Positions 16,205-37,384 of a stretch of 64,000 bases of DNA are shown in pieces. This DNA is from Pseudofrankia coriaricola. GTDB lineage: Bacteria; Actinomycetota; Actinomycetes; Frankiales; Frankiaceae. A program made the translations under genes and the position numbers. Within the stretch, counting starts at the first letter, position 1. Each line of letters opens with the position of its first letter. The stretch is from positions 62,001 through 126,000 of the forward strand of contig NZ_MBLO01000114.1 in NCBI RefSeq assembly GCF_001854805.1, in the 5' to 3' direction. The notes beneath the pieces were generated by a model. That model saw only the letters and a list, made by a program, of their open reading frames with translations. It searched no databases and had not been told where the DNA came from.

Positions 16205-18184
16205 GTGAGCACGGTACCCAGTCACTCCCGGACCGCCGCCGACATCTGGTCGGTGGCCGACCTGCTGCGCGGCGACTACAAGCGGCACGAGTACGGCGGC
16301 GTCATTCTGCCGTTCACGCTGATGCGCCGCCTGGACGCCGTCATGGCCGAGAGCCGGCAGCCCGTGCGCGACAAGGACGCCTCGCTAGCCAACCAAAACA
16401 AGCACCCCCTTCTGGTGAGCGCTGCTGGGCGGCAGTTCTACAACGTGTCCAAGCAGGATTTCTCGACGATCGCCTCCGACTCCACCAACCAGGCAGTGGT
16501 GGCGAAGAACCTTCGGGACTACGTGAACGGCTTCTCGCCGAACGTGCGCGCCGTCCTGGAGGCCTTTGGTCTGGATAACCAGATCGGCAGGCTGGCAGGC
16601 TCCAAGCTGCTCTGCCAGGTCATCGGTCGGTTCACGAAGATGGACCTCGGCGGCCTGTCCAGCCACGACATGGGCTACGTCTTCGAGCACCTGATCCGCA
16701 AGTTCGCGGAGGACTCGAACGAGACCACCGGTGAGCACTTCACCCCGCGTGAGGTCATCGAGCTGATGGTCAACCTGCTGGTTGCCCCGGACGCGGACAC
16801 CGTCGCCGTGCCGGGCCAGGTGATCAACGTTTTCGACCCGGCCTGCGGGACCGGCGGCATGCTGACCGCCGCCGCGGACCATCTGCGGAACATGAACCCG
16901 GGCGCCAACGTGTTCCTCAACGGCCAGGAGGTCAACCCCGAGTCGTGGGCGATATGCCAGTCGGAGATGCTGCTGCGCGGCCAGCGCGGCGACATCGCGC
17001 TCGGCAACTCCTTCAGCCAGGACAGGTTCGCCGGCAAGCGGTTCGACTACATGCTCGCCAACCCGCCGTTCGGCGTGGAGTGGAAGAAGGTCAAGGACGA
17101 GGTCGAGCAGGAGGCCGAGCTGGGCCACGCCGGCCGGTTCGGTGCCGACCTGCCGCGGATCAACGACGGGTCGTTCCTCTTCCTGCAGCACATGATCTCG
17201 AAGATGGAGCGGGTCGAGGGCAAGGGCGCGCGGCTCGCGATCGTCTTCAACGGCTCGCCGCTGTTCACCGGCGCCGCCGAGTCCGGCGAGTCGAACATCC
17301 GCCGCTGGATCCTGGAGAACGACTGGCTGGAGGGCATCGTCGCCCTGCCCGACCAGCTCTTCTACAACACGGGCATCTCCACCTACTTCTGGATCCTGTC
17401 GAACCGCAAGGCGCCCGTGCTGCGGAACAAGGTGATCCTGCTCGACGCCCGCGACCAGTGGGCGAAGATGCGCAAGTCCCTGGGGGACAAGCGCAAGCTC
17501 ATCAGCGATGCCCAGATCAAGCACATCACGAGGCTCTACGAGCGGTCCGTCGACGTCGCCGTCAGCCCGGACGACCCCGACCACGGCAAGGTGAAGATCT
17601 TTGCGACGCGGGACTTCGGCTACCACCGCGTCACGGTGGAGCGGCCGCTCAAGCAGCGCTTCGAGATCACCGAGGACACCCTGCTCGCCCTGGCCGAGGC
17701 GAAGGCCCTCGCCCGATGGGACGGCAGGGAGAGCCTGGTCGAGGCCCTGCGCGGCGCGGTCGGCTCGGTCTGGTGGAGCAAGGATGAGGCGACCGCCGCG
17801 CTGCTCGGCATCGCCATGGGCGCAGGCGCCAGCCTGCCCGGCACGGCGGCGCTGCTCAAGGCCGTGTGGTCCGCCGTCGCGGTCTCCGACCCCGAGGGCG
17901 AGGTCCAGCGCGACAGGAGCGGGAGCCCGCTGCCCGACCCGGACCTGCGCGACTACGAGAACGTGCCCCTCGACGAGGACATCGAGGCCTACTTCGTCCG
18001 TGAGGTCACTCCCCATGTCGCCGACGCGTGGATCGACCGCGAGAAGACCAAGGTCGGCTACGAGATCCCCTTCACCCGCCACTTCTACGTCTACACGCCG
18101 CCCAGGCCGCTGGCCGAGATCGACGCCGAGCTCCGCGACCTCGAGGCCCAGATCCAGAAGCTCCTGGGCGAGGTCACGGCGTGA
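16205..18184 (+). CDS. hsdM: Type I restriction-modification methyltransferase subunit HsdM
   Basis: 659 residues. The N-terminal HsdM helical domain (DIWSVADLLRGDYKRHEYGGVILPFTLMRRLDAV in order) precedes the methylase domain. The latter has GEHFTPREVIELMV, SAM motif DPACGTGGML and catalytic NPPFGVEW. A C-terminal tail of about 200 residues ends in a helix ERPLAEIDAELRDLEAQIQKLLGEV-like, suited to contacting HsdS. The GTG at 16205 is preceded by GAGGAGA. The stop overlaps the GTG of hsdS (GTGA), so the two are translationally coupled. No hsdR is visible downstream; it may be lost or elsewhere, making this possibly a methylation-only pair. Confidence 0.95.
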   Translation: MSTVPSHSRTAADIWSVADLLRGDYKRHEYGGVILPFTLMRRLDAVMAESRQPVRDKDASLANQNKHPLLVSAAGRQFYNVSKQDFSTIASDSTNQAVVAKNLRDYVNGFSPNVRAVLEAFGLDNQIGRLAGSKLLCQVIGRFTKMDLGGLSSHDMGYVFEHLIRKFAEDSNETTGEHFTPREVIELMVNLLVAPDADTVAVPGQVINVFDPACGTGGMLTAAADHLRNMNPGANVFLNGQEVNPESWAICQSEMLLRGQRGDIALGNSFSQDRFAGKRFDYMLANPPFGVEWKKVKDEVEQEAELGHAGRFGADLPRINDGSFLFLQHMISKMERVEGKGARLAIVFNGSPLFTGAAESGESNIRRWILENDWLEGIVALPDQLFYNTGISTYFWILSNRKAPVLRNKVILLDARDQWAKMRKSLGDKRKLISDAQIKHITRLYERSVDVAVSPDDPDHGKVKIFATRDFGYHRVTVERPLKQRFEITEDTLLALAEAKALARWDGRESLVEALRGAVGSVWWSKDEATAALLGIAMGAGASLPGTAALLKAVWSAVAVSDPEGEVQRDRSGSPLPDPDLRDYENVPLDEDIEAYFVREVTPHVADAWIDREKTKVGYEIPFTRHFYVYTPPRPLAEIDAELRDLEAQIQKLLGEVTA

Positions 18185-19464
18185 GCGGTCCTCCTGCCTG
18201 GAGGTCGACGCGCGTCTATCGCGTGGCGACCGTCAATGCCCGGATCGGCTGGAAGGCGTTGACGGCGAGCGAGTACCAGCCGGACGGCTATGTCTTCCTC
18301 TCGACCCCGAACATCAAGTCCGGATCCATCGACTTCGAGAACGTCAACTACATCAGCGAGTTTCGGTACGAGGAGTCCCCGGAGCTGAAGCTGGCGGTCG
18401 GCGACGTCCTGCTCGCGAAGGACGGGAACACGCTCGGGATCACCAACGTCGTCCGCGAGCTGCCGAGACCGGCCACGGTGAACGGTTCCATCGCGGTCCT
18501 TCGGCCGTTCGGTGTCGGCTCGCGGTTCCTGCGTTACTCCCTGGCCAGCAGCCCGACCCAGAGCCTCATCGAGGAGCTCAAGGGGGGCATGGGCGTTCCG
18601 CATCTGTTCCAGTGGGACATCAACCGTCTCCCGGTCCCGCTGCCGCCACCCGACGAGCAGCGCCGTATCGCCGACTTCCTCGACGCCGAGACCGGTCGGA
18701 TCGACAGAATGATCGGGCTTCACAGGTCCCAGCTCGGCCTGGTCGCCTCGCGGACGCGCGCGCATCTTCATCAGCTGGCCGAGGACCTGAGCCGGGAGCA
18801 CGGCGTGGTGAAGGTCCGGCATGTGCTTCGGAAGATCGAGCAGGGATGGTCGCCGCTGTGCGAGGAGCGCCCGGTGGAGGGAGAGGAGTGGGGCGTCGTC
18901 AAGGCGGGCTGTGTGAACGGGGGCGCCTTCGACGCGAGCCAGCACAAGTCCCTCCCGGCCGGCATCCCACCGGACCCGCGTTTTCGCCTCGCGCCCGGCG
19001 ACCTTCTCATGTCGCGCGCCAGCGGGTCGGTCGAGCTGATCGGGAGCATCGCCGTCCTGCCGGAGGACCTGCCTCCCAGGCTCCTGCTGTGCGACAAGAT
19101 CTATCGGCTCCGGATGGATCGCACCCGCATGGCTCACGAGTTCGTCGCGTTCATGCTTACGACGCATCGGGTGCGCGAGCTGATCAGGATTGGGATATCC
19201 GGCGCCGATGGCATGGCGAACAACCTGCCGACGGCGACCGTCACCAACCTCCCGCTGCCAGATGTTCCCCTGGCGAAACAGGACGCCGTCATCCGCGAGC
19301 TGGCGGCTCGCCGCGGTATGGCGCAGGAGTCCGCGCGCGCCCTGACGCAGCAGATCAACCTCCTGGCGGAACGCCGACAGGCGCTCATCACCGCGGCCGT
19401 GACCGGCCAGATCGATGTGACAACCGCGCGTGGGCTGGTGCCAGATCAAAGGAATGCCGCATGA
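18181..19464 (+). CDS. hsdS: Type I restriction-modification specificity subunit HsdS
   Basis: 427 residues, starting at a GTG that overlaps the hsdM stop. It has two target-recognition domains in tandem. The first ends in GGMGVPHLFQWDINRLPVPLPP followed by the conserved helix DEQRRIADFLDAETGRIDRMI. The second ends in NNLPTATVTNLPLP followed by the second spacer helix and the typical terminal LLAERRQALITAAVTGQIDV. The paired halves and repeat helices are complete, so it should specify a bipartite recognition site. The sequence cannot tell which one. The short region after it (to 19630) shows no hsdR start. Confidence 0.93.
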   Translation: MSGPPAWRSTRVYRVATVNARIGWKALTASEYQPDGYVFLSTPNIKSGSIDFENVNYISEFRYEESPELKLAVGDVLLAKDGNTLGITNVVRELPRPATVNGSIAVLRPFGVGSRFLRYSLASSPTQSLIEELKGGMGVPHLFQWDINRLPVPLPPPDEQRRIADFLDAETGRIDRMIGLHRSQLGLVASRTRAHLHQLAEDLSREHGVVKVRHVLRKIEQGWSPLCEERPVEGEEWGVVKAGCVNGGAFDASQHKSLPAGIPPDPRFRLAPGDLLMSRASGSVELIGSIAVLPEDLPPRLLLCDKIYRLRMDRTRMAHEFVAFMLTTHRVRELIRIGISGADGMANNLPTATVTNLPLPDVPLAKQDAVIRELAARRGMAQESARALTQQINLLAERRQALITAAVTGQIDVTTARGLVPDQRNAA

Positions 19465-20956: not shown

Positions 20957-21752
20957 TAGCCAGTTGCAGCTCGGCCTTGAGTGATCATGACGAGCGGCCT
21001 GGAAGCAGGATCTTTACCGTCTTGAGGCAGTGCGTTCCCCCGTCCTTCGGCCCCGACGCGGCTGGCCCTCAGGTGGTTCACCGGTCGGTACGGCGTGCGG
21101 ACAGTCATGCCGGCGGCACTCGGACAAGGCGGTACCGCACTGGAGTCATCCTGATCAACTCCACGTCACCCCTCGCGGCCGACCGGGCGCAGCCGTGGTT
21201 GGTCATAGTTGTGGGCGTCGATCGTTATCCGCCCAGTACATTCCCGGCCGCCCCTGACCGTCGGCAGGATCATGGAAATCGAACGGCTGATTGGAGATAG
21301 GTATTCTCCTTGCCGCCCGACGTGATCCCGTGATTCGCTTCCACCCGTTCCATCGACAACCGGGGCTTCCGAACTCATTCTCGTCTTGTTACCGACACTG
21401 TTGTTGACAGGATTCCTGGTGAGTGCTCCTCGGCGGGCGATGGGCGCGGGCGTCCGTCAGTGGGCACTTCTCGCCCTTCGAACTCGTGTAGCCGAACAAC
21501 TACGCAAATGTGCGGACCGGTGGCTTTTCCGCCACCGCGACGGGCCCTGACGCCTGGCCGGTCGTGGCGGGCCGGAGGAAACGGCTCGCGCCGACGGGCG
21601 TCGGCAGAGTGGCCACCGCCCCGCACTTCCGTCCTGCCTCCGCCCGGAGCGGCGCGCACTCGGGCCGCTCGGCGTCACACCGCTCGCCACCACCGGCAAG
21701 GTCGCCACCAGGCAGCCGTGGACCTCCACCAGCAGACCGTGAAGGACGCCCT
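20957..21752. other. About 800 bases without a supported gene, upstream of the N-N biosynthetic cluster
   Basis: Lower GC than its surroundings around 21170-21520, and all open frames here have poor codon bias or TTG starts. A TTGACA hexamer at 21404-21409 could be a -35 element, but no convincing -10 follows. The likely role is promoter and leader of the biosynthetic cluster. A stretch of about 25 codons before 21740 has coding-like bias but no start. No RNA gene or repeat was recognised. Confidence 0.5.
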
Positions 21753-21770
21753 ATGAGTCCCTGTGAGTAG
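21753..21770 (+). promoter_or_regulatory. Possible five-codon leader ORF overlapping the first cluster gene start
   Basis: ATG at 21753 with GAAGGA upstream reads MSPCE and stops at 21768-21770, overlapping the GTG (21763) of the transglutaminase-like gene. It may provide translational coupling for a gene with no ribosome site of its own. Could be chance. Confidence 0.3.
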
Positions 21771-22770
21771 GCAGACCCTCGAGGACCTGGGCCGCGGCCG
21801 CGCCGGTCAACCGGATCCCGGGTGGCGGCGCGCGCGGCTCGGTTTCGAGCCGACCCCGCCCGACCTGGCCGTCTTCGACACCACCCTCGCCGCCGCGGCC
21901 ACCGTGCTGTGCGCCGACGAGGCCGCGGTGGCCGCGCTCGGCCTTCCCCAGGTCGGTGGCCTGCTGGACTTCACGGACGTCGCCAACGCGGCGCTGCACT
22001 CCGGGACGGGCACCACACTGCCGGAAATGGCCAGGCGGCTGCTCATGCGGTTCGCGGCCGGCGAGCCCGACCGGTGGTACGCGCCTCTGGACTGGACGGT
22101 GGCGGTCCACCAGCCGCCCACCGGCGAGACCCTCCAGATGGCGGTGCCGGATCTGGACGCCGAGGGCGTGGAGCTCCTGGACGACCCGGCCGCCGACCAG
22201 CCGCGACCGGTCGTCCCGGATGGGCATCAGGCCGATCCGTACCAGGTGCGGGTCCGGCTGACCGGTGAGCGGTACGACGTCACCGACCGCCGGATCCACG
22301 CCGCGTTCGACGACGTTCTCGCGGCGCTCCACGGCGGCGCGGTGCACTACCAGGCGATCGCCGAGCCGCTGCGCGCCGACCACCGGCGGTCCTGGGAACT
22401 GGGTGTCGCCGACTGCGTCGTGGCCGGGAGGGTGCTCGCCGACCGGCTGCGGGCCGAGGGATTCCAGGCCAGGGCGCGCCGCGGCTTCCTGCTCGGCCTC
22501 ATCGGCAACGACCACGGCTGGTGCGAGGTTCACCTCGACGGCCAGTGGCGCCCGTTGGACCCCGTGTTCGCCTACCTCGCGGCCGAGCACGGTCGGGACA
22601 GCGCGGCGAGGTTCGAGACGGCCTGCCGCGGCGGCCGTTTCAACCGGGTGCTGCCGTGCGCGGTGGCCGAGTCGGCCGCGCTGTTCCTGTCGCCAGACGG
22701 CTCGCCCGCCCCGGCCTGGGCCGTCGCCGCCGTGTCCTCACGCCTGCGGCGCGCCGCCGCGCGGGCCTGA
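21763..22770 (+). CDS. Transglutaminase-like (papain-fold) enzyme, first gene of N-N biosynthetic cluster
   Basis: 335 residues. The C-terminal half carries a transglutaminase-like catalytic set: Cys218 in ELGVADCVVAGRVLADRLRAEGF, His251 in NDHGWCEVHLDGQW and Asp266 in RPLDPVF, the normal Cys-His-Asp order. The N-terminal half is unassigned. In secondary metabolism such folds form or cleave amides and thioesters on carrier proteins, so it may release or transfer the ACP-bound product here. No signal peptide. It lies 11 bases before the ferritin-like gene and on the same strand as the whole cluster. Fold assignment is good; reaction is inference. Confidence 0.75.
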   Translation: MSRQTLEDLGRGRAGQPDPGWRRARLGFEPTPPDLAVFDTTLAAAATVLCADEAAVAALGLPQVGGLLDFTDVANAALHSGTGTTLPEMARRLLMRFAAGEPDRWYAPLDWTVAVHQPPTGETLQMAVPDLDAEGVELLDDPAADQPRPVVPDGHQADPYQVRVRLTGERYDVTDRRIHAAFDDVLAALHGGAVHYQAIAEPLRADHRRSWELGVADCVVAGRVLADRLRAEGFQARARRGFLLGLIGNDHGWCEVHLDGQWRPLDPVFAYLAAEHGRDSAARFETACRGGRFNRVLPCAVAESAALFLSPDGSPAPAWAVAAVSSRLRRAAARA

Positions 22771-22781
22771 GGAGAATGGTC

Positions 22782-23891
22782 ATGGAGCCGGACACGATGG
22801 CGCGGCTGGCCGGGAACTGGGCCGTTCCGCTGGGTGGGGACGCGCTGTTCACCTGGGACTACAGCGCCGGCACCGAGCAGATGCTGGACCTGTACTCCCG
22901 CGGCAAACAGCGTCAGTGGGACGCCGAGCTGCGGCTGGACTGGAGCCACGACGTCGACCCGGACAACCCGCTCGGCCTGTCCGACGAGTTCGTCTGGATC
23001 GCCGGCTCGCCGGTGTGGGAGCGCCTGCCGGACGCGGAGCGGGTGACCGTCCGCCGGCACCTGGCTGGCTGGCTCTACTCACAGTTCCTGCACGGTGAGC
23101 AGGGCGCCCTGGTGTGCTCGGCGAAGGTCGTCCAGTCGGCGCCGGACATCGCCTCGAAGTTCTACGGCGCCACCCAGGTGATGGACGAGGCCAGGCACGT
23201 CGAGGCGTTCCAGCGCATGCTGCAGACCAAGATCAAGGTTGAGTATCCGATCTCGACGGCCCTGGGCGGCCTGCTCGAGACCATCATCGGGGACGGCCGG
23301 TGGGACATCACCTACCTCGGCATGCAGGTGATGATCGAGGGCCTCGCGCTGGCGTCGTTCAGCATCCAGCGCGACCGGATGCGCGATCCGCTGGCGCGGG
23401 CGCTCAACGCCTACGTGCTGCAGGACGAGGCGCGTCATGTCGCGTTCGGGCGGCTGGCGCTGCGTGACTACTACGGCCAGCTCAGCGCCGCCGAACTACG
23501 TGAGCGCGAGGACTTCGCGGCCGAGACGTGCTGGGTGCTCAAGGACCGGTTCACTGGCGAGGAGATGTGGCGCAACCTCGACCACGGCGCCGAGGAATGC
23601 ATCGCGGCGGCCAACCGCTCGCCGGCCCAGCGGGAGTTCCGGCGCCGGCTGTTCAGCCGGATCGTCCCGACGCTGAAGGACATCAACCTGTTCGGTCCCA
23701 GGATGCGGGAGACCCTGCGCGCGCTGGGCGTGCTCGGGTTCGGCAAGGTGGACGGGGCGGAGCTCTCCGCCGAGGACGAGCGGATCGCCGACGAGATCGC
23801 CGAGGCGGAGCTCGCCGCCCGGCGGCGGGAGGTCTCCTCGGCCGTCGCCCGCGGTGCCGGCCCCGCTGACGACGGCGAGGCCGCGGAATGA
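22782..23891 (+). CDS. Ferritin-like diiron oxygenase/oxidase
   Basis: 369 residues with a ferritin/RNR-R2-like four-helix bundle. Two E-x-x-H half-sites are visible (DEARHVE, Glu136/His139, and DEARHV, Glu216/His219), with additional ligands Glu106 (HGEQGAL) and Glu186 (MIEGLAL). This is the standard six-ligand diiron set. The ATG at 22782 is chosen for its GGAGA at a normal distance. It overlaps the SGNH gene by ATGA. Relatives act as N-oxygenases (AurF type), C-H oxygenases or long-chain oxidases. In a cluster that builds an N-N bond, oxidation of a hydrazine or hydrazone nitrogen is the attractive inference. Confidence 0.85.
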   Translation: MEPDTMARLAGNWAVPLGGDALFTWDYSAGTEQMLDLYSRGKQRQWDAELRLDWSHDVDPDNPLGLSDEFVWIAGSPVWERLPDAERVTVRRHLAGWLYSQFLHGEQGALVCSAKVVQSAPDIASKFYGATQVMDEARHVEAFQRMLQTKIKVEYPISTALGGLLETIIGDGRWDITYLGMQVMIEGLALASFSIQRDRMRDPLARALNAYVLQDEARHVAFGRLALRDYYGQLSAAELREREDFAAETCWVLKDRFTGEEMWRNLDHGAEECIAAANRSPAQREFRRRLFSRIVPTLKDINLFGPRMRETLRALGVLGFGKVDGAELSAEDERIADEIAEAELAARRREVSSAVARGAGPADDGEAAE

Positions 23892-24577
23892 CCGAGCCGA
23901 CCGAGGCCACCGACCCGTACGTCACCCCCACCGAGGCCGGCGTGCAGGTGCTGGCGGGCGCGCCGTGGAAGCGGATCGCCGTGATCGGCGACAGCATCTC
24001 CGCCGGAGTGCGCGAGGTCGTTCCCGGCTACCAGGACCTGTCCTGGGTGGACCGGATCAGCGCCGTGCTGCGCCGGATCCACCCCGACTTCGACGAGATA
24101 CGGCTAGCCCGGCGCGACGTGACGCTGGCCGAGATCCGCCGGGCGCAGCTGCCGCCCGCCCTGGACTTCGCGCCCGACCTGGTGTTCCTCTCGGGCGGGG
24201 GCAACGACTTCATCAGGCCGGGCTTCGACCCGGTCGTCGCCCGCGCCGAGCTCACCGAGATCGTCTCCGGGGTCCGGGGGAGCGGTGCCGACATCCTCAC
24301 CATCGGCATGCTCGACATCAGCCGGGCGGGCGTCGTCTCGGAGCGATTCGCGGGACCGATCGGCGAGGCGACGAGGATCCTCACCCGGATCACCCGCGAG
24401 GTGTCCCAGGAGCACGGCGCGATCTTCGTCTCGTTCACCGACCATCCGCTCTGCGCCGACCCGGGTCTCTACTGCGGCGACAAGCTGCACCTCAACTGCC
24501 GCGGCCAGGCCTTCGAGGCCACCGAGAAGATGTGCGCGCTCGCCGCCCACCTGGCCGCGAGGAGCCAGGTCTCATGA
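23888..24577 (+). CDS. Cytosolic SGNH/GDSL hydrolase
   Basis: 229 residues. SGNH blocks: GDSIS with Ser36, GGGND with Asn106, and the terminal Asp198-x-x-His201 in GDKLHLN. No signal peptide, so unlike most actinobacterial GDSL lipases it acts in the cytoplasm. It overlaps both neighbours by ATGA, which ties it to the biosynthetic cluster. Likely an esterase, thioesterase or acyltransferase acting on a pathway intermediate (for example product release or removal of a protecting group); the sequence cannot say which. Confidence 0.85.
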   Translation: MTEPTEATDPYVTPTEAGVQVLAGAPWKRIAVIGDSISAGVREVVPGYQDLSWVDRISAVLRRIHPDFDEIRLARRDVTLAEIRRAQLPPALDFAPDLVFLSGGGNDFIRPGFDPVVARAELTEIVSGVRGSGADILTIGMLDISRAGVVSERFAGPIGEATRILTRITREVSQEHGAIFVSFTDHPLCADPGLYCGDKLHLNCRGQAFEATEKMCALAAHLAARSQVS

Positions 24578-26709
24578 TCGACCCGACGACGTCGCTGCCG
24601 CCCGGGCCGCTCGAGTGCGGCCCGGCCGCCGCCGCGCAGGCGGCCGCGCTGGTCGCCGGGCCGCCGGGCGCGCTCTACCGGGTGCTGCTGGTCGAGCAGG
24701 AGTCCGAGGCGGCGCTGGTGGCCGCCCGCCGGGTGCTCGCCGCGTTCCTGCCGGATGGCGCGGGCCTGGACCGGGATCGGGTGCTCGCCGAGCTGGCCGA
24801 CGCCCGCGCCGCGATCGCGACGGCCGCCGCGCGGCTGCGCGCCGCGTCGGCGGAGACCCTGGCCGCCGTGCTGCGCGAGCGGGCCCCGCTCGCGCTGATC
24901 GAGGGCTGCTGGCTCGACGCCGTGTCGCAGCCGGCGACCCAGCCCGCCGTGATCGTCAACCGGCTGCTCGCCGAGCGACTGGAGATCCTGGGCCATGGCG
25001 TCGCCGAACACACCCTGGCCCAGCGCCGCCGCCGGCTGCTGGACGACCACGGCGTGCTGCTCCCCGGCCTGACGTCTCCCGACTTCCTGGCCGGGGCGCG
25101 GGCCCGGCCGCTCACCGCGGTGACAGGCGCCTTCTACCTGGCGCTGTCCCGGCTGCCGGCCACCTTCCTGCCGGAGGTGGTCGGCGCGCACTGCGCCTTC
25201 CGCGCACTGGGCACCGACACCGGCCTGTCCGGGATGAACGGCCCCGGGTACGACCCCGCGCCGCTGCTGTCGGAGTACCTGGCGCTCACCGAGCGGGCAC
25301 CCACGGGCCCGGCCGACAGGGCCCGGCTGCTCGCGGCCATCCAGCTCGTCGTGGGCCTGGAACGCGCGCACGTCGCCATGCTCGCCGAGCTCGCCGGCTG
25401 GCACGAGAGCCTCTCGCTCGACGACCGCATGGCGCTGATCGTCGCCAGGCACGCGCCGTACGCCGGCCGCCAGCACGACAACGTGCAAATCTCCGGTGTA
25501 GCGCTGCGCGATCTGCTCGCCGGCCCGGACTTCGACGCCGCGGCGCTCGTCCACCGCCTCCGCTCCGCCAGCCAGCTGAGACCGTCGCCGTCCGGCGGTT
25601 GCCGCTTCACCAGGGCGATCAGGTTCGGCGGACCGATGTTCGGGATCTTCGACGAGGTCGAGGCGCGCACGATCACGCGGTGGGCGTCGGCCGTTGCCAG
25701 CGGCGACGAACCACGCGCCACGCTCGCTCCCTGTACCGCGGGGGACGACGAGGCCGCCGCCTGGCGGCGCGCGCTCGTGGCCGCCGCTCCCGGCGACGTC
25801 GTCGTCGCCGAGCCGGCGGTTCTCGACGAACGCCGGTTCCTTTACCGCCTGGTCAACGTCGAGCGGTTCCCGGGCGTGCTGGCCGCGGCCAGGACCCGCG
25901 TCGAGCGGGTGCTCGCCCAGGCCGAGGCGCTGTTCGAGCTGGGCGCCGCCGGGCGCTACACCGACGCCACCTGGTTCGACTACAGCCCCGTGGCGCTGCG
26001 GCGACGGATGGACACCATCTACTGGACGAAGCTCGTCGAGCCGTTCCGGCCGCTGACCGACATCCCACCGCGGGACGAGGTGATCAACAACCAGAAGCGG
26101 TTCGCGCTGGGCAACCTCGTCGACGGCGCCTGCACACACCGGATCGGCGCTACCGGCCGTGACCGGCCTGGCGACGCCGCGCTGTTCGCGATCTACGCCG
26201 ACGAGATGGGCCGCGGAGACGTCGCCAAGAACCACATCACGCTGATCCACCAGGCCCTGGCCAGCATGGACATCCAGCTGCCGCACCTGCGCGCGCGGGA
26301 GTTCCTCACCCAGACCGAGCTGCCGGACCTGGGCTACCCCTACGCCACCTACCAGCTCAGCCTGGCGCTGTTCCCGGACTCCCACTACGAGGAGATCCTC
26401 GGCTACCACCTCGGCCTCGAGATGTTCGGCCTCGGCGAGCTACGGCTGCACGAGGTGCAGAAGCTGCGCCACCACCGTATGGACACCGCCTACGAGTCGG
26501 TGCACCTGTCGATCGACAACGTCTCGGCGGGCCACAGCCGCCAGGCGGCCGACCTGATAGTCGACCACCTCGACCACGTCGGCCGCGCCGCCGGTCCGGC
26601 CGCCGTCGAGCCAGCGTGGCGGCGGGTGTGGCGCGGCTACGCCTCGTTCGCGCTCTTCGTCGAGCCGCGGCTGGCCCGGCGCCTGCTCGCGGGGCGGGGG
26701 GCGCCGTGA
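24574..26709 (+). CDS. Haem-oxygenase-like diiron oxidase/oxygenase (HDO, Haem_oxygenas_2 type) with large N-terminal extension
   Basis: 711 residues. The C-terminal about 200 residues show an HDO metal pattern: Glu544 and His554 (DEMGRGDVAKNH), Glu616 (LGLEMFG), then His644, Asp648 and His654 (VHLSIDN and AGHSRQ). The spacings (E-x9-H, H-x3-D) resemble those I recall for SznF. The N-terminal about 500 residues are helical and unassigned, much larger than usual for a stand-alone HDO. The ATG overlaps the SGNH stop, and the gene ends overlapping the acyl-CoA dehydrogenase GTG. HDOs catalyse N-oxygenation, N-N formation, or C-C fragmentation; the role here is inferred to be N-oxidation. Confidence 0.75.
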   Translation: MIDPTTSLPPGPLECGPAAAAQAAALVAGPPGALYRVLLVEQESEAALVAARRVLAAFLPDGAGLDRDRVLAELADARAAIATAAARLRAASAETLAAVLRERAPLALIEGCWLDAVSQPATQPAVIVNRLLAERLEILGHGVAEHTLAQRRRRLLDDHGVLLPGLTSPDFLAGARARPLTAVTGAFYLALSRLPATFLPEVVGAHCAFRALGTDTGLSGMNGPGYDPAPLLSEYLALTERAPTGPADRARLLAAIQLVVGLERAHVAMLAELAGWHESLSLDDRMALIVARHAPYAGRQHDNVQISGVALRDLLAGPDFDAAALVHRLRSASQLRPSPSGGCRFTRAIRFGGPMFGIFDEVEARTITRWASAVASGDEPRATLAPCTAGDDEAAAWRRALVAAAPGDVVVAEPAVLDERRFLYRLVNVERFPGVLAAARTRVERVLAQAEALFELGAAGRYTDATWFDYSPVALRRRMDTIYWTKLVEPFRPLTDIPPRDEVINNQKRFALGNLVDGACTHRIGATGRDRPGDAALFAIYADEMGRGDVAKNHITLIHQALASMDIQLPHLRAREFLTQTELPDLGYPYATYQLSLALFPDSHYEEILGYHLGLEMFGLGELRLHEVQKLRHHRMDTAYESVHLSIDNVSAGHSRQAADLIVDHLDHVGRAAGPAAVEPAWRRVWRGYASFALFVEPRLARRLLAGRGAP

Positions 26710-27857
26710 GCCTGGACGCGGAACTGGTGGCGCTGCCGTTCTACGAGCAGCGGCACCGAGAGCTGGCCGAGTCGCTGCGCGGGTTCTGCGACACCCACCC
26801 GGAGCTCGTGGTGACGGCCCGCGCCGACGCGCCGGAGAAGTACGCCGCCCGCGTCCTGCGTGCGCTGGGGGCCGCGGGGCTGCTCGACCCCGCCGACCTG
26901 CGCAGCCTGTGCCTCATCAGGGAGGCTCTTGCCTACACCGAGGACCTGGCCGACTTCGCGTTCTCCATCCAGGTCCTCGCCGCCTGGCCGATCCGGCGCC
27001 ATGGCACCGACGAGCAGCGGCGGCGCTGGCTTCCCGGGATGGCGCGCGGCGAGCTGGCCGGTGCGTTCGCGCTGTCCGAGGAGCAGGCCGGCTCGGACGT
27101 CGGGGCACTCGCCCTGCGCGCCGTGCCCGAGGGCGACGGGTATGTCCTGGACGGGCACAAGACGTGGATCGCCGGCGCCGCGGGAGCCGACGTCTTCTGC
27201 GTGGTGGCCCGCACCGGCGAGGGCCCGGCCGCGCTGGGCCTGACCGCCCTGCTCGTGCCGGCCGGCACACGGGGGCTGCGGATCGAGCCGATCGACCTGG
27301 TCGCGCCGCGTGACATCGCCCGGTTGGAGTTCGACGGCTGCCGGGTCCCGGCCGACGCGGTGCTGGGCGCCCGTGGCGGCGGGTTCGTCGTGGCCATGGA
27401 ACTGCTCGAACGGTTCCGCCTCACCGTCGGCGCCGCGGCGCTCGGCTTCGCGCGCCGGGCCGCCGACGCCGCCCTGGTGAGGGCCCGGCAGCGGGCGGCG
27501 TACGGCGGGCGGCTGTTCGACCTGCCGACGGTGAAGGCCACCTTCGGCGACATCGAGGTAAGGCTCAACGCCGCCGCGCTCCTGGTGGCCAGGGCCGCCT
27601 GGGAGGCCGACCGGGGCGCCCCGCTGGCGAGGCACTCCAGCATCGCGAAGCTGTACGCCACCGAGGCCGCCCAGCAGGTCGTGGACGCCGCGGTGCAGGT
27701 GTACGGCGCGGCGGGGCTGGTGCGCGACAGCCTGCCCGAACGGCTGTACCGGCAGATCCGGTCGCTACGGATCTACGAGGGCGCCTCCGAGGTGCTGCGG
27801 CTAGCCGTCGCCGACGCGCTGGGGCCGCGCGGCCGGGACGGTGCGCTCGCCCGATGA
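26706..27857 (+). CDS. Acyl-CoA dehydrogenase-like flavoprotein
   Basis: 383 residues, normal family length. Seen are FALSEEQAGSDVGALALRA (FAD and substrate site), DGHKTWIAGA, and the C-terminal RIYEGASEVLRL with the catalytic-base glutamate position of the acyl-CoA dehydrogenase family. The GTG overlaps the previous stop (GTGA). In triacsin biosynthesis an enzyme of this class oxidises an ACP-bound acylated hydrazinoacetyl group to the hydrazone. With a ligase, an ACP and a GNAT in the same cluster, that is the most likely job here. The alternative is ordinary desaturation of an acyl-ACP. Confidence 0.9.
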   Translation: MSLDAELVALPFYEQRHRELAESLRGFCDTHPELVVTARADAPEKYAARVLRALGAAGLLDPADLRSLCLIREALAYTEDLADFAFSIQVLAAWPIRRHGTDEQRRRWLPGMARGELAGAFALSEEQAGSDVGALALRAVPEGDGYVLDGHKTWIAGAAGADVFCVVARTGEGPAALGLTALLVPAGTRGLRIEPIDLVAPRDIARLEFDGCRVPADAVLGARGGGFVVAMELLERFRLTVGAAALGFARRAADAALVRARQRAAYGGRLFDLPTVKATFGDIEVRLNAAALLVARAAWEADRGAPLARHSSIAKLYATEAAQQVVDAAVQVYGAAGLVRDSLPERLYRQIRSLRIYEGASEVLRLAVADALGPRGRDGALAR

Positions 27858-27886
27858 CACCGCCGGACCGTCCGGACCGCTACCCA

Positions 27887-27950
27887 CCCTGCCCACACCG
27901 CTCCCTGCCCACACCGCTCCCTGCCCGTAACACTCCCTGCCCGTAACACC
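27887..27950. repeat. Four tandem 16-bp repeats between the two halves of the cluster
   Basis: Units at 27887, 27903, 27919 and 27935: two copies of CCCTGCCCACACCGCT and then CCCTGCCCGTAACACT and CCCTGCCCGTAACACC. They occupy the only sizeable gap in the biosynthetic cluster, just after the acyl-CoA dehydrogenase stop. Possibly a slippage array or a spacer that splits transcription units. Confidence 0.9.
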
Positions 27951-28065
27951 CCTCTCCGTCCGCACCACCCCCCTTCGACGCCGGGTGGTCGGCGAACCCG
28001 CCGCCGGTCGACGTGACCGCGCTCGACGACCTGATCTCGCCAGACGCTGAAAGCGAGCTCTACTC

Positions 28066-29361
28066 ATGGGGAGTACGTCTCCGCGGTACCGCTGTGTCGG
28101 AATCGGCGCCGGACCAGCGAACCTGAGCCTCGCCGCCCTGCTGCACGGTGACCCGGCGACGCCAAACCTGATCATCGACCGGAAGGCCGAGTTCAGCTGG
28201 CACGACGACCAGCTCGTCCCGGGCGCGACCCTCCAGGTGTCCTTGTTCAAGGACCTGGTCAGCCTGTCCGACCCGACCAGCCCGTTCTCGTTCATGGCCT
28301 ACCTGCACGACCGCGGGCGGATCTACCACTACCTCAACGCGCGGTTCGACAACGTGCCCCGCGAGGAGTTCCGCAACTACCTGCGCTGGGCCTGCGGCCG
28401 CAACGAGAACGTCGTCTTCGGCGAGGAGGCGCGGTCCGTCGACTTCGTCGACGACGCGTTCGTGGTGCGAACCGGCCGGCGCACCCTCCGGTCGGACAAC
28501 GTGGTGGTCGGCGTCGGAACCGCGCCGTGGGTGCCGCCGTTCGCCCGGCGGCACCTGGGCGGCGCCACCCAGTTCCACGTCAGCGAGTTCCGGTCGAAGG
28601 CCGTCGGCCTGCGCGACCGGCGGGTGGCGGTGATCGGCGGCGGGCAGTCCGGGGCCGAGGCGTTCCTCGACCTGATCTCCAGGCCGGAGGGCGAGCTGCC
28701 TCACCGGGTGTCGTGGCTGTCCCGGCGGCGCAACTACTTCCCGATGGACGACTCGCCGTTCACCAACGAGTTCTACATGCCCTGCCACTCCGACTACTTC
28801 GCCGACCTCGACCCGGCGGTGCGGACCGAGTTCAACATCCAGCACGTGCTGACCAGCGACGGCATCTCCGAGGCCACCGCGCGCAGGATCTACCAGCAGG
28901 TCTACGTCCACCGGTTCATCACCGGCGCCCCGCAGCTCGCCGGGCTCTACCCCAACCGTGAGGTGGTCAGCGTCGAGGCGTGCTCGCCCGACGGCTGGAG
29001 CATCTCCGCCCAGCACAACGACCTGGCGGGCGGGCTGGAGATCTTCGAGGCCGATGTGATCATCTGGGCCACCGGTTTCCGGCCGGCTCGGATGGACTTC
29101 CTGGCGCCCCTGGAAGGGCGCCTGGAGCGGGAGGGCGACGAGTACCGGGTCGACGCCGACTTCGCCGCCCGCTGGGACGGCCCGGCCGACCGGAACCTGT
29201 TCCTGCAGAACGCCACCCGCGCGCAGCGCGGCCTCGCCGAGGTGAACCTCAGCCTCAACGCCTGGCGCAGCCAGCGCATCGTGGACCGGATCCGTGGCGT
29301 CCGGGCCAGGGCACAGGACCCGGCGTTCGTCGAGTGGTCACCGAAGACGGGAGCCCACTGA
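28066..29361 (+). CDS. L-lysine/L-ornithine N-hydroxylase (SidA/IucD family)
   Basis: 431 residues. FAD-binding GIGAGPAN at residues 12-19, substrate-region FSWHDDQLVPGATLQ in order, NADPH-binding GGGQSGAE near residue 190, MDDSPFTNEFYMP, and the ATGFRP box near residue 335 mark a flavin amino-acid N-monooxygenase. It should make N6-hydroxylysine or N5-hydroxyornithine in the cytosol. No siderophore NRPS or NIS synthetase is present. Instead the next two genes encode a DAO-type oxidase and a cupin-MetRS fusion, the trio known to turn N6-hydroxylysine plus glycine into hydrazinoacetate. Lysine is therefore the favoured substrate. The stop overlaps the next ATG (TGATG). Confidence 0.95.
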   Translation: MGSTSPRYRCVGIGAGPANLSLAALLHGDPATPNLIIDRKAEFSWHDDQLVPGATLQVSLFKDLVSLSDPTSPFSFMAYLHDRGRIYHYLNARFDNVPREEFRNYLRWACGRNENVVFGEEARSVDFVDDAFVVRTGRRTLRSDNVVVGVGTAPWVPPFARRHLGGATQFHVSEFRSKAVGLRDRRVAVIGGGQSGAEAFLDLISRPEGELPHRVSWLSRRRNYFPMDDSPFTNEFYMPCHSDYFADLDPAVRTEFNIQHVLTSDGISEATARRIYQQVYVHRFITGAPQLAGLYPNREVVSVEACSPDGWSISAQHNDLAGGLEIFEADVIIWATGFRPARMDFLAPLEGRLEREGDEYRVDADFAARWDGPADRNLFLQNATRAQRGLAEVNLSLNAWRSQRIVDRIRGVRARAQDPAFVEWSPKTGAH

Positions 29362-30425
29362 TGGGCCAAGGGGCGTGCGATCATGGCGAAGCCGCGCGCC
29401 CGGAGGCCGCCGCCCAGGCGACGCCGACCGTGGACGCCGACATCGTGGTGGTCGGTGCCGGAGTGGTCGGCTGCCTGGTGGCCACCGAGGCGATGGCCCG
29501 CGAGCCCCGGCGGCGGGTGACGGTGATCGACAAGGGGCTGGTCGGGGGAGGGGCCTCCCGGTTCTCCGCCGGCCTGCACTTCCCCCGCGGGGCCTCCGCG
29601 CGGGTGCGGGCCATGGCCGCCTACAGCGGGCGCTGGTACGAGGAGCTGCGCCGGCGAGACCCACAGATGCCCATCCACCCGGTCGGCATGACCGTGGTCA
29701 GCGCCGACGAGGCCTCGGTCCGGGAGCACTATCTCGCCGAGGTCCGGCTGCGCCCGGTCGACGGCGGCTGGGACTGCGACGGGGCGCAGTACGCCGACGT
29801 CGGCGCGCTGACCCAGCTGCTGGCCGCCCGGCTGCGCGACCGGGTGACGATCCGTGAGGGCACGGCGGTCACCTCCGTGAGTCCGACCGCGGACGGCGTC
29901 GTTCTCACGCTGGGCACCGGCGCGCGGCTCACCGCCAGCCGGGTCGTGCTGGCGCCCGGCCCCTGGCTCGCCTGGCCGGAGCTGCTCGCCCCGCTCGGCA
30001 TCCGCGTCAAGAAGGTCGTCGCCCTGCACGTCGAACGACCCGCCTCCCTGACTGACCGCGCGACCGTCTTCCACGACGAGGACGCGTTCCTGCTCCCGCT
30101 CGCCCACCGTCGCCACTGGCTGTTCAGCTACACCTCGACCGACTGGGACGTCACACCCGACGCGCTGGCCGGCGGGCTGTCCGCCGAAGACCTCGACCGC
30201 GGTCGGGCGCTCCTGGCGCACCACGCCCCGGCGCTGCGCCCGCACTGCGTCTCGGGCCGGGTCTTCTGCGACGCGTACAGCCCTGACCGTGCGCCGATCG
30301 TGCGCCCGATCACCGCCGACGGCCGGGTGATGTTCGCCGGGGCGGCGGGCGGTTCCGGCTACCGGCTGGCCCCCGCGATCGCCGCCGAGTGCGCCGACTG
30401 GCTCGACGAGGAGGACAGTGCATGA
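29361..30425 (+). CDS. DAO-type FAD-dependent amine oxidase (hydrazine-releasing step)
   Basis: 354 residues of the glycine-oxidase/D-amino-acid-oxidase family: dinucleotide motif VVVGAGVVGCLVATEA near residue 30, the GGGASRFSAGLHFPRG loop, and the C-terminal SPDRAPIVRPI and FAGAAGGSGYRLAPAIA FAD contacts. In the s56-p1 and triacsin pathways the homologous enzyme oxidatively cleaves the lysine-glycine hydrazine to free hydrazinoacetic acid. The first about 23 residues are an unconserved extension, encoded by a diverged copy of the same repeat that is duplicated in the ACP gene. The stop overlaps the next ATG (ATGA). Confidence 0.9.
   Translation: MGQGACDHGEAARPEAAAQATPTVDADIVVVGAGVVGCLVATEAMAREPRRRVTVIDKGLVGGGASRFSAGLHFPRGASARVRAMAAYSGRWYEELRRRDPQMPIHPVGMTVVSADEASVREHYLAEVRLRPVDGGWDCDGAQYADVGALTQLLAARLRDRVTIREGTAVTSVSPTADGVVLTLGTGARLTASRVVLAPGPWLAWPELLAPLGIRVKKVVALHVERPASLTDRATVFHDEDAFLLPLAHRRHWLFSYTSTDWDVTPDALAGGLSAEDLDRGRALLAHHAPALRPHCVSGRVFCDAYSPDRAPIVRPITADGRVMFAGAAGGSGYRLAPAIAAECADWLDEEDSA
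29363..29407 (+). repeat. Diverged copy of the ATGGCGAAGCC repeat
   Basis: The start of the oxidase gene (around GCGTGCGATCATGGCGAAGC, then CGGAGGC) resembles the 45-base element found twice in the ACP gene at 33968 and 34028, with the same core ATGGCGAAGCC and CCGGAGGC. It codes the non-conserved N-terminal extension of the oxidase. Confidence 0.55.
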
Positions 30426-32410
30426 TCATCGAGCGCTATGACGCCGCCGCGCTCTCCCAGGCCTTCGGGATCGACATGGCCTCGGTCGACGGGCTGGGCT
30501 CCGCCGCCGCCTGGGGCCGCGTCGCGCCCCACAGCGTCTCGATGCACCACCGGCACGACGAGACCGAGCTGATCGTCGTCGTCGCCGGCCGCGGTGAGGT
30601 CGTCGTGGGCGCGGGGCACCACCCGGTCGAGGCGGGTACCGCCCTGCTGTTCGAACCGTTCGAGGACCACGTCGTGCGCAACACGGGGGACCGGGATCTG
30701 GTCTTCCTCAGCCAGTACTGGCGCGACGGCGCCCGCGCGGTGTCCTCGGCCGCGCCGGTGACCAGCGAGCATCGCGGCCGGCCGGTGTTCGTCTTCTCGA
30801 CGCCGCCCACCCCGAACGGCGACCTTCACCTCGGCCACCTCGCCGGGCCCTACCTGGGCGCCGACGTCTACGTCCGGTTCCAGCGGATGCACGGCGCCCG
30901 CGTCTGGCACCTGACGGGCAGCGACGACTTCCAGTCCTACGTGGTCGACCGCGCTCGCCGGGAAGGCAGGTCGAACGCCGAGACGGCGGCGCACTACAGC
31001 GCCGAGATCGCGGAAACCCTGCGGCTGATGGACATCTCGCCCGACCAGTACACCGCGACGAGCACCGACCCCACCTACGTCCCCGTGCTGAGGGACTTCT
31101 TCACCGGGCTGGTCGAGCGCGGCGCGATCGCCGCGGCGGACGGCCCCGCGCTGTTCGACCCGCGGACCGGCCAGTACCTCTACGAGGTGGACGTCCGCGG
31201 CCGCTGCCCCGGCTGCGGCCAGACCACCGGCGGCAACATCTGCGAGGAGTGCGGCGAGCCGAACACCGTGGCCGACCTGGCCGACCCGGTCGCCGCGCCG
31301 TCCGGCCAGGCACCGACCGCCGGCACGGCCCGTCGCTACCTGCTCGGGCTGCACGAGCACGCCGGCACGGTGCTCGACCACCACCGCCGGGGCCGCGTCC
31401 CGGCCCGGTTGCGGGAGCTCGCCGCGCGGCTGTTCCGCCGGGAACGCATCGACCTCCCCGTGAGCCACCCCAGCGACTGGGGCGTCACCCCGCGCGAGGC
31501 GGACGGCGCCGGCCAGGTGATCTGGGTGTGGCCGGAGATGGCCTTCGGTTTCCTGTATGGCATCCAGAAGCTGGGCGAGCGGCTCGGCCACGGCTGGACG
31601 GCAGCCGAGCCGGCCGACGACTGGAAGATCGTCCATTTCTTTGGCTACGACAACAGCTTCTACCACGCGATTCTCTACCCGGTGCTCTACCGGCTCGCCC
31701 TGCCCGGCTGGACACCGGACATCGACTACCACGTCAACGAGTTCCTCCTCTACGACGGCCAGAAGTTCTCGACCAGCCGCCGGCACGCCATCTGGGGCAA
31801 GCAGATCCTCGACGCCGACAGCGTGGACGCCGTGCGGTACTTCCTCGCCCGTAACCGCCCCGAAGTGGAGCGGACGAACTTCACGCTCGCCGACTACGAA
31901 CACACGCTGTCGACCAGCCTGATCGGTACCTGGCAGTCCTGGCTGAACGACCTCGGCTGGCGGGTCGCCGACCGCCACGGCGGTGTGGCGCCCGACGCCG
32001 GCAACTGGACGCCCGAGCACGCCGGGTTTCTCGGCCGGCTGGAGGCCCGGCTCCGCGCGCTCACCGCCAGCCTGCGGCCCGGCGGGTTCTCCCTCAACCA
32101 GGCCGCCGCCGAACTGGACGCGCTGGTGGCGGACGCGTCGCGGTTCAGCCGCGCGGAGGATGGGCTGGCGCGGGCCGGCGGCATGCCGGACGAGACGCGC
32201 ACGGCCACGGCGCTCGAGCTGGCCGCCGCCGCGCTGCTCGCGCGCGGCGCCGCGCCGGTGATGCCGCGCTTCGCCGGCCGGCTGGCCGAGGCCCTCGGCC
32301 AGCCGCCGCCCGACCGGTGGCCGAGCACCGTCGAGCTGATACCGCCGGGCAGCAAGCTCACCCTCGCCGACGCCACGTTCTTCCGCCCGACCAGCGGGAA
32401 CCTCTCGTGA
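30422..32410 (+). CDS. Cupin-methionyl-tRNA-synthetase-like fusion: hydrazine synthetase
   Basis: 662 residues. Residues 1-100 are a cupin with His43, His45, Glu49 and His83 as metal ligands (MHHRHDETE and EDHVVRN). Residues about 120-660 are MetRS-like: class I HLGH at 136-139 (TPPTPNGDLHLGHLAGPYLG), a zinc knuckle with Cys262, 265, 274 and 277, and a KMSKS variant KFSTS at 448-452. This two-domain architecture is that of Spb40/Tri28-type hydrazine synthetases. They activate an amino acid (glycine in known cases), esterify the hydroxylamine of N6-hydroxylysine and rearrange it to an N-N bond. It is flanked by the matching hydroxylase and oxidase, overlapping by ATGA, so it is not a housekeeping MetRS. 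Confidence 0.94.
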   Translation: MIIERYDAAALSQAFGIDMASVDGLGSAAAWGRVAPHSVSMHHRHDETELIVVVAGRGEVVVGAGHHPVEAGTALLFEPFEDHVVRNTGDRDLVFLSQYWRDGARAVSSAAPVTSEHRGRPVFVFSTPPTPNGDLHLGHLAGPYLGADVYVRFQRMHGARVWHLTGSDDFQSYVVDRARREGRSNAETAAHYSAEIAETLRLMDISPDQYTATSTDPTYVPVLRDFFTGLVERGAIAAADGPALFDPRTGQYLYEVDVRGRCPGCGQTTGGNICEECGEPNTVADLADPVAAPSGQAPTAGTARRYLLGLHEHAGTVLDHHRRGRVPARLRELAARLFRRERIDLPVSHPSDWGVTPREADGAGQVIWVWPEMAFGFLYGIQKLGERLGHGWTAAEPADDWKIVHFFGYDNSFYHAILYPVLYRLALPGWTPDIDYHVNEFLLYDGQKFSTSRRHAIWGKQILDADSVDAVRYFLARNRPEVERTNFTLADYEHTLSTSLIGTWQSWLNDLGWRVADRHGGVAPDAGNWTPEHAGFLGRLEARLRALTASLRPGGFSLNQAAAELDALVADASRFSRAEDGLARAGGMPDETRTATALELAAAALLARGAAPVMPRFAGRLAEALGQPPPDRWPSTVELIPPGSKLTLADATFFRPTSGNLS

Positions 32411-33909: not shown

Positions 33910-34324
33910 CCCAGCCAAAGACGCTCCCCCAAAGATCGGCTGGCGCCGATCTTTGGGGACCCCGGCGGCGACAATGGCGAAGCCTTGCGCGGCCGGAGGC
34001 GTACCAGCCGACCCAGCCAAAGGCCGCGCGACAATGGCGAAGCCTTGCGCGGCCGGAGGCGTGCCAGCCGACATCGAGGCCGCGGCCCGGGAGAACCTGG
34101 CGGCGGTGCTGACGTTCGACGTCGCCCCCGCCGACCTGGCGAGCGACGTCGACCTGACCGGCACCTATGGGCTCACCTCACTGAACAAGGTTCTTTTCCT
34201 GACCTCGCTGTGCAGGGACACGGGCGTCGACATCGCGCGCCTCACCGAGGACGATCTGGCGGGAATGCACACGCTGCGCGACTGCGTGGACATCCTGTCG
34301 CCGCACCTTCCGGCCGGGACCTGA
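33899..34324 (+). CDS. Acyl carrier protein with repeat-derived N-terminal extension
   Basis: The carrier domain is residues about 58-141 (IEAAARENLAAVLTFDV, then DLTGTYGLTSLNKVLFL). Ser94 in GLTSLNK sits at the phosphopantetheine position, with Thr in place of the usual Asp. The first about 57 residues are not ACP-like: they are coded by a perfect 14-bp-arm hairpin and two copies of a 45-base repeat, giving ATMAKPCAAGGVPAD twice. Translation may start at ATG 33899 (overlapping the ligase end) or at the internal ATG 34034, which would give a normal about 96-residue ACP. It presumably carries the hydrazinoacetyl/hydrazonoacetyl group. Confidence 0.85.
   Translation: MLPDPAKDAPPKIGWRRSLGTPAATMAKPCAAGGVPADPAKGRATMAKPCAAGGVPADIEAAARENLAAVLTFDVAPADLASDVDLTGTYGLTSLNKVLFLTSLCRDTGVDIARLTEDDLAGMHTLRDCVDILSPHLPAGT
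33927..33958. repeat. Perfect hairpin in the 5' part of the ACP gene
   Basis: Arms CCCCAAAGATCGGC and GCCGATCTTTGGGG (14 bp, no mismatch) around the loop TGGC, just after the ligase stop. It could be an inserted palindromic element, an attenuator, or an RNA-processing/stability site that alters ligase to ACP stoichiometry. Confidence 0.9.
33968..34072 (+). repeat. Two direct copies of a 45-bp element, 60-bp period
   Basis: Copies at 33968-34012 and 34028-34072 differ at one base. Each begins GCGACAATGGCGAAGCCTTG and ends CCAGCCGAC. The 15-base linker GCCAAAG-type sequence also occurs before the hairpin at 33911. The period is a multiple of three, so the ACP frame is preserved. Confidence 0.95.
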
Positions 34325-34327
34325 CCG

Positions 34328-36541: not shown

Positions 36542-36601
36542 CTGACTACCTCCACAGGGCCTGTGTCGTCCTGACAAGACCTGTGCCCATCATCACGCGA
36601 T

Positions 36602-37225: not shown

Positions 37226-37315
37226 ACGGGCTTTCTCCTCATCGCAGTGTCCGTCGCCCGGATCATTCGGGCCGGGACGGGGGGCTTGATTGTAGGCGTT
37301 GACATCCTCACATTC

Positions 37316-37384
37316 ACTTGACGTGCGCCCGGTCGGACGTCCAGCGCACCTCCGTGGACGCACGGAATCTACTTGACGGGCGCC
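37316..37384. promoter_or_regulatory. Direct repeats between TetR and MMPL genes
   Basis: ACTTGACGTGCGCC at 37316-37329 and ACTTGACGGGCGCC at 37371-37384 differ at one base and each contains a TTGACG hexamer. They may be duplicated -35/operator sites read by the TetR protein. Which promoter they serve cannot be told. Confidence 0.5.

Follow-up and report, generated by a model that had tools for sequence, protein, structure and literature searches.

Two unrelated diiron proteins in a truncated hydrazone operon of Pseudofrankia coriaricola probably serve different halves of one pathway

Why two diiron oxygenases in one operon?

What an operon gains from encoding two unrelated diiron oxygenases almost side by side is the question raised by a 64,000-nucleotide stretch of the 11.2 Mb draft genome of Pseudofrankia coriaricola (contig NZ_MBLO01000114.1, positions 62,001 to 126,000; the whole stretch is here termed the window, and its numbering is used throughout). 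A 12-gene operon on the + strand (21763-35982) specifies a ferritin-like diiron protein (FDO, 22776-23891) and a 711-residue heme-oxygenase-like diiron oxygenase (HDO, 24574-26709). An earlier note on this DNA, made from its letters, suggested that the pair successively oxidizes the nitrogen of one hydrazine substrate. The best explanation of the locus as a whole, to which slightly better than an even chance is given, is instead a 5′-truncated hydrazone pathway of the type of the Nocardia ninae nin cluster, with the oxygenases serving two different halves of it. Background is drawn from PMC13061610, PMC13274452, PMC10445470, PMC11705231 and PMC13108848.

The layout described in the earlier note stands. 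The two diiron proteins match different families, the FDO PF11583 (AurF, 62.2 bits, cut-off 29.6) and the HDO PF14518 (Haem_oxygenas_2, 54 bits, cut-off 28.9, residues 531-688), and both have invariant ligands. Only the gene for a small GDSL/SGNH hydrolase (23888-24577; PF13472, 70 bits), kept in all six clusters of nin type, lies between them and overlaps both. The overlap is of 4 bases at each junction, including that of the HDO gene with the following acyl-CoA-dehydrogenase-like gene (26706-27857). The designation as a hydrazine/hydrazone operon was also borne out, all six Pfam marks by which PMC13061610 defines hydrazone clusters (PF02770, PF13434, PF01266, PF00501, PF13302 and PF03417) being present above cut-off. 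By sequence comparison the last eight genes of the operon are the cassette leading from hydrazinoacetate to a hydrazonoacetyl unit on an acyl carrier protein (ACP), as in the triacsin, azaserine and dob clusters.

The heme-oxygenase-like protein

The ligand pattern read earlier, E544, H554, E616, H644, D648 and H654, is present exactly, and is invariant in 41 of 41 aligned sequences with identity down to 23% (the alignment leaves out the HDO of the G300/L120 cluster, which reads in pieces in the draft). This 3H/3C set, with the heme-oxygenase-like fold of the model, places the protein in the HDO superfamily. The likeness to SznF noted earlier for the spacings holds in part: they are 10/62/28/4/6, compared with 10/56/30/4/3 for SznF (E215-H225-E281-H311-D315-H318; PMC11705231), but the last ligand is at D+6 rather than D+3. 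The motif H-x3-D-x5-H, and not H-x3-D-x2-H, is common to all 41 sequences, and the model has a helix break at 648-653. A further residue, D517, at least 90% conserved in the same alignment, lies at about the distance of SznF E189 and may correspond to the extra carboxylate that HDOs of the SznF-like 3H/4C type have on an auxiliary helix.

In the predicted structure (pLDDT 90.3, pTM 0.91), residues ~414-700 have RohS (Z 20.3, 249 aligned residues, 3.5 Å), HrmI (Z 20.1) and SznF (Z 19.7) as their nearest solved folds, all of them N-oxygenases, with the Glu and first His ligands aligning with those of HrmI and RohS. At the sequence level a phmmer search of PDB yielded nothing up to E 1, and a profile search two marginal matches only. 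The extra length is accounted for by an N-terminal half, residues ~14-284 (24613-25425), that aligns with the C-terminal half (hhalign probability 99.3, E 2.9e-20) and matches the fold of FlcD (Z 16.4, 245 aligned, 3.2 Å), and in which ligand positions are replaced by I139, L148 and R210. All six ligands are in the C-terminal domain, which includes a helical part of SznF type (residues ~414-700, 25813-26673). By sequence and model, the protein combines a degenerate, metal-free pseudo-HDO with an HDO that looks active, and its relatives, from the alignment of 41, seem to be tandems of the same sort. An SznF-like arrangement of HDO and C-terminal cupin was considered and rejected, there being no cupin match and the additional half being the pseudo-HDO.

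The HDO is, by sequence, orthologous to those of the azaserine (AzsE) and N-nitroglycine (NngH) clusters. A genome scan with the single HDO query gave no matches; one based on the alignment gave 48 named loci, to 47 of which the window HDO is 46-79% identical and to the last 30%. Among them are the azaserine producers Glycomyces harbinensis (L114) and Streptomyces fragilis (L122, 54.5% identity), and S. noursei (L100), whose HDO is 53% identical. As expected of an AzsE/NngH orthologue, it is full length and encoded beside a hydrazine dehydrogenase in a hydrazinoacetate cluster, and the HemeO-like domain of AzsE is reported at 528-706. Within the family, full-length HDOs occur in 4 of 35 genomes (the present one, G088, G260 and G300), with that of the window the sole one of its genus. 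The azaserine and N-nitroglycine work names this HDO as a candidate hydrazone N-oxidase, and nitrogen oxidation by the window protein is likely because of both the orthology and the fold match to N-oxygenases.

What accompanies the HDO differs. Azaserine clusters have in common with the window the adjoining dehydrogenase and the hydrazinoacetate cassette, but are reported to have a nonribosomal peptide synthetase (NRPS), a 3-oxoacyl-ACP synthase and the P450 AzsG where the window has the FDO, a transglutaminase-like protein (TGase) and the GDSL hydrolase. The N-nitroglycine cluster likewise has the cassette, but has the P450s NngJ and NngS, and its L100 locus is without FDO, TGase or GDSL match.

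The ferritin-like protein

With numbering from the ATG at 22776, the FDO ligands are E108, E138/H141, E188 and E218/H221; the earlier note had the same six with numbers lower by 2, its count having started at 22782. All 13 sequences of one alignment and all 22 proteins of another keep them (the FDO of L076, with a stop in the range taken, is left out of the FDO alignments). What is missing is the seventh ligand, the His four residues before the fifth-ligand Glu that goes with N-oxygenases of the AurF/CmlI/Dob3 kind. At this position (H225 of Dob3) the window protein has V214. In the 22-protein alignment all 16 members of its group have Val here, and all six of the other AurF-family proteins, Dob3 among them, have His. 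A set of AurF-family genes from five genomes has His at 13 and Val at 7 of 20 loci (from 23 places, with two below cut-off dropped and L217, one of the remaining 21, unread).

The Pfam match, the six ligands and the modelled helical-bundle fold mark the FDO as a ferritin-like protein of the AurF family, of which, by sequence, it is a branch of its own. The model (pLDDT 77.5) matches R2lox (Z 22.0), AurF (Z 21.6) and aldehyde-deformylating oxygenase (ADO; Z 21.6), and ADOs head its Foldseek matches (E 1.2e-4). With so many ferritin-like families tied, the modelled fold does not decide the reaction. In sequence profile searches of PDB the AurF and CmlI entries, though matched by fold, were not reached up to E 1. 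The best profile match, a weak one (E 4.6e-6), is 6d9f, a VlmB homologue from Kitasatospora setae with ~17% identity to the FDO in the fold alignment and, as aligned with it, six ligands and no seventh His. For the valanimycin enzyme VlmB, conversion of a hydrazine to an azoxy compound is reported (PMC11705231), and a six-ligand FDO can therefore act on N-N bonds. The window FDO would be a VlmB-like rather than a Dob3-like oxidase, though no gene resembling that for VlmO, the partner with which VlmB acts, was recognized among the Pfam-scanned operon proteins.

Dob3 itself, which converts a hydrazone to a diazo group, is also an AurF-family FDO of a hydrazone cluster and shares the six ligands, but it has the seventh His where the window protein has Val, and a BLASTP comparison of the two gave no significant match (E 3.3). 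On both counts the FDO was rejected as a Dob3 orthologue.

FDO paralogues that are ~50% identical are widespread; in three genomes of one genus (G293:C94, G039:C14 and G483:C300) they are divergent from an adjoining AurF-family gene.

Company kept by the ferritin-like protein

By sequence evidence the FDO travels not with the HDO but with a module comprising a fatty acyl-AMP ligase (FAAL), an ACP and a TGase. In the FDO tree the six proteins from hydrazone clusters are joined to five from Streptomyces with support 93/98, and the five Streptomyces loci (L068, L204, L205, L206 and L207) have runs of the order AMP ligase-FAAL-(ACP)-TGase-AMP ligase-FDO. The nitrite genes CreE and CreD are beside the FDO at three of the five (L068, L204 and L206), which suggests a coupling step shared by two N-N chemistries. 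In Streptomyces sp. NRRL S-87 (G293) the HDO cluster has a P450, and the FDO-TGase pair is on another contig without the hydrazinoacetate cassette. The latter run comprises AMP ligase, FAAL, ACP, TGase, AMP ligase, FDO, hotdog thioesterase, dehydrogenase, CreE-like and CreD-like genes. The lyase of the run matches CreD (436 bits) and its flavoprotein PDB 8cp2 (704 bits), on which match and its gene position it is read as a probable CreE. The same order recurs in the four further Streptomyces loci, L204-L207, which were found via a TGase query. A chorismate-binding/glutamine amidotransferase protein is encoded at four of the five.

In 10 genomes searched with the FDO as query, a TGase is encoded within a few genes of the four in-cluster FDOs and of G293:C15; these five are the only places free of the circularity of the TGase query. 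An FDO is present at four and absent from eight of 12 TGase loci, which were taken from lists of 24 and 11 places. At the 48 HDO loci, the combination of FDO, TGase and GDSL hydrolase is present at four (Frankia CiP1, Protofrankia coriariae, N. ninae and N. uniformis), a P450 of the azsG type at 30, and both P450 and FDO at none. Neither is present within the flank covered at 14, several of which are on short contigs.

Eight HDO loci with ~22 kb covered at each (L088, L089, L097, L099, L105, L110, L113 and L117) have neither FDO nor azsG-type P450; these may be a further cluster type, in which the HDO is possibly the sole oxygenase. The genome of Frankia G088 also has a second TGase cluster (L213, G088:C1:2400001-2420000), in which an FAAL and AMP ligases are encoded but an FDO is not.

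A cluster without its 5′ end

According to PMC13061610, N. ninae has two hydrazone clusters, dob and nin. One of its two loci, L239, has a synthase of thioesterase-ketosynthase-acyltransferase-ACP composition like Dob2, cassette genes, and an FDO (L239:9451-10452) in which the seven published Dob3 ligands are all present at offset 0. This locus is, from its sequence, dob, and the other, L084, is therefore by elimination nin. The nin locus has the same 12 genes as the window in the same order. In all there are six distinct clusters of this type (those of the window, G088, G260/L077, G300/L120, N. ninae L084 and N. uniformis L086), and the 12 genes from that for TGase to that for a C45 acyltransferase/hydrolase are collinear in the other five.

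The difference is upstream. In five of five other hydrazone clusters an FAAL gene precedes that for TGase, and between the two is a gene for a small carrier protein, ACP2, with a (D/E)-S motif (read by eye). The nin cluster keeps both; the window has, in place of an intact FAAL and ACP2 preceding TGase-FDO-GDSL-HDO, a remnant only. This (21680-21814) comprises a decayed 3′ end of the FAAL gene and the start of that for ACP2, is 74% identical over 136 bases to the corresponding sequence of G088 (E 1.6e-17), and runs into the TGase gene. About 190 bases of the ACP2 interior are deleted, after which the TGase sequence resumes at 88% identity to G088. The TGase gene (21763-22770; PF01841 at 22.4 bits, slightly below the cut-off of 23) retains its Cys (22414-22416), His (22513-22515) and Asp (22558-22560), invariant in six of six aligned sequences. 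Its N-terminal residues probably come from the lost ACP2, the homologous part starting at 21844. By these comparisons the window copy is a 5′-truncated nin-type cluster that has lost FAAL and ACP2. Because these are gone, the full product would not be made in this strain unless both are supplied from elsewhere. A search of the strain's own genome with the N. ninae FAAL gave at best an FAAL of 45% identity, which is paralogue level (42-44% in relatives); true counterparts are at 55-62%.

The missing upstream genes, the pseudo-HDO half and the lack of the seventh His in the FDO are features that the earlier note did not have.

Genes for acetyl-CoA carboxylase subunits are upstream of the cluster in Protofrankia (L120, 895-4809) and N. 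uniformis (L086, 19-3547). They were considered as part of the cluster core and dropped, the gene adjoining FAAL in G088 being unrelated (KdpD-like by eye). Protofrankia also has a large polyketide-synthase-like region further upstream (L166, read by eye).

A proposed pathway and its competitors

In the pathway favored here, lysine and glycine would give hydrazinoacetate, to be succinylated and loaded on a first carrier protein, ACP1; dehydrogenation and desuccinylation of the bound unit would then yield hydrazonoacetyl-ACP1. These steps are inferred because the corresponding enzymes of the triacsin, azaserine and dob pathways are characterized. In the intact relatives FAAL would load a second acid on ACP2, and TGase would join the building blocks of the two carriers. 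The presumed role of the HDO is oxygenation of the hydrazone's terminal nitrogen, which is also the proposal made for its azaserine and N-nitroglycine orthologues. The FDO, as a member of the FAAL/ACP2/TGase module, would most likely oxidize the coupled product or the acyl part on ACP2, with the GDSL hydrolase then releasing or trimming the product. To judge from sequence, the two diiron enzymes probably serve the two halves of the pathway rather than performing two rounds on one nitrogen. Of the successive oxidations first proposed, the part concerning the HDO thus survives in its orthology to the candidate hydrazone N-oxidase. A second N-oxygenation of the same hydrazine by the FDO did not find support, given the missing seventh His, the lack of a significant Dob3 match and the tie to the FAAL/ACP/TGase module.

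Several observations pull the other way. The FDO is translationally coupled to the GDSL hydrolase and HDO, which could mean one shared substrate, and FDOs of the VlmB type, which are without the seventh His, are reported as hydrazine oxidizers (PMC11705231). Tree support is weak in places, with the six hydrazone-cluster FDOs held together at 86/73 and the 'para' group split off at 69/43. The linkage of FDO to TGase is circular for four of the five Streptomyces loci, these having been found via TGase; the 20 kb of L205 includes no CreE/CreD, and L207 is cut by a contig end. Eleven window genes compared with G088 are free of stops, with ratios of nonsynonymous to synonymous substitution rates (dN/dS) of 0.20-0.44, a pattern at odds with simple decay. 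Literature searches, some of them directed to TGase with nitrite or diazo genes, found no paper on the product of the Frankia or nin cluster.

That both enzymes nevertheless oxidize the same hydrazine or hydrazone nitrogen in turn, with the FDO replacing the P450 NngS/AzsG, is doubtful. The HDO could, for instance, yield an N-hydroxy compound or nitrosamine, and the FDO from it a nitramine, azoxy or diazo product. The coupling of FDO, GDSL hydrolase and HDO in one operon fits, as do the mutual exclusion of FDO and azsG-type P450 at HDO loci (4 versus 30 of 48), the reports that NngH and the P450 NngS are both essential, and the VlmB homologue as best PDB profile match, VlmB being a reported hydrazine oxidizer. 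But the FDO is without the seventh His, its subfamily is also present in clusters without the hydrazinoacetate cassette, and at least eight HDO loci (22 kb) with neither FDO nor P450 imply that some HDO clusters can do without a second oxygenase. A broader version, in which FAAL-ACP2-TGase-FDO is an exchangeable cassette for two unrelated N-N supply lines (hydrazonoacetyl-ACP from lysine and glycine, and nitrite from CreE/CreD) and the FDO is a six-ligand N-N oxidase of a new class that, beside the hydrazinoacetate cassette, acts after the HDO, is unlikely; were it true, a single N-N unit would be worked on in series by two unrelated diiron enzymes of one pathway. Formation of a diazo group by the FDO, in the manner of Dob3, with the HDO performing another step, is very improbable. 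The precedent of Dob3, which is itself an AurF-family FDO and is encoded in the other hydrazone cluster (L239) of N. ninae, is offset by the BLASTP result, by V214 in place of His and by the 20-kb dob stretch, in which there is no HDO, TGase or GDSL match.

Action of the FDO on carbon, i.e. desaturation, hydroxylation or ADO-like deformylation of the acyl group bound to FAAL/ACP2, is possible, if still on the unlikely side. The ADOs that head the Foldseek matches, the linkage to FAAL/ACP and the six-ligand set without an extra His are all compatible with it, but R2lox, R2 and AurF tie within a Z of 1, so that the fold is not decisive, and 8 of the 12 TGase clusters fetched are without an FDO. 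Somewhat short of an even chance, and compatible with any reading of the relatives' clusters, is that the operon is dead in this strain, loss of FAAL and ACP2 having ended the pathway with the rest not yet decayed. The remnant and deletion at 21680-21814 and the paralogue-level best FAAL of the genome point that way. Against it are the stop-free genes and their dN/dS values, those of TGase, FDO and GDSL (0.27-0.33) being no laxer than those of the cassette genes, and another ligase could stand in.

Relevance to azaserine and N-nitroglycine

The enzyme that oxidizes the hydrazone in the azaserine and N-nitroglycine pathways is, in the work cited, not established, and the HDO is among few candidates. 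A cluster type that has the HDO but neither P450 nor NRPS separates the task of the HDO from that of the P450, and provides a small testable set. In addition, the FDOs of hydrazone clusters are of more than one kind: in N. ninae the dob cluster has the Dob3 type, whereas nin has an unrelated FDO without the seventh His. The pairing of FDO and HDO may have been published already in pictorial form, since, from its legend, Extended Data Fig. 5 of PMC13061610 depicts FDO and HDO cluster types.

The remainder of the operon and its surroundings

Downstream of the HDO gene, the acyl-CoA-dehydrogenase-like protein (PF02770 and others) has the place of AzsF/DobM, which convert hydrazine to hydrazone on the carrier. 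It is followed by a lysine N6-monooxygenase in the place of AzsL/DobG (28066-29361; PF13434, 282 bits), an FAD amine oxidase in that of AzsM/Tri27, which would release hydrazinoacetate (29430-30425; PF01266, 111 bits), and a cupin-methionyl-tRNA synthetase-type hydrazine synthetase in that of AzsN/Tri28/DobE (30422-32410; PF09334 and PF07883). Next are an AMP ligase in the place of AzsP/DobC (32407-33909; PF00501) and ACP1 in that of AzsQ/DobQ (34061-34324), the latter without Pfam match and assigned from its position and conservation in relatives. A GNAT succinyltransferase (34328-34927; PF13302) in the place of AzsS/DobB and the C45 acyltransferase/hydrolase (34924-35982; PF03417; NF040521, 204 bits) in that of AzsT/DobA complete the operon.

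An Rfam search gave no match in the window. Upstream of the truncated 5′ end are hsdM and hsdS of a type I restriction-modification system (16205-19464), and downstream of the operon (36086-39674) are genes for an F420-dependent quinone reductase, a TetR regulator and an MMPL transporter.

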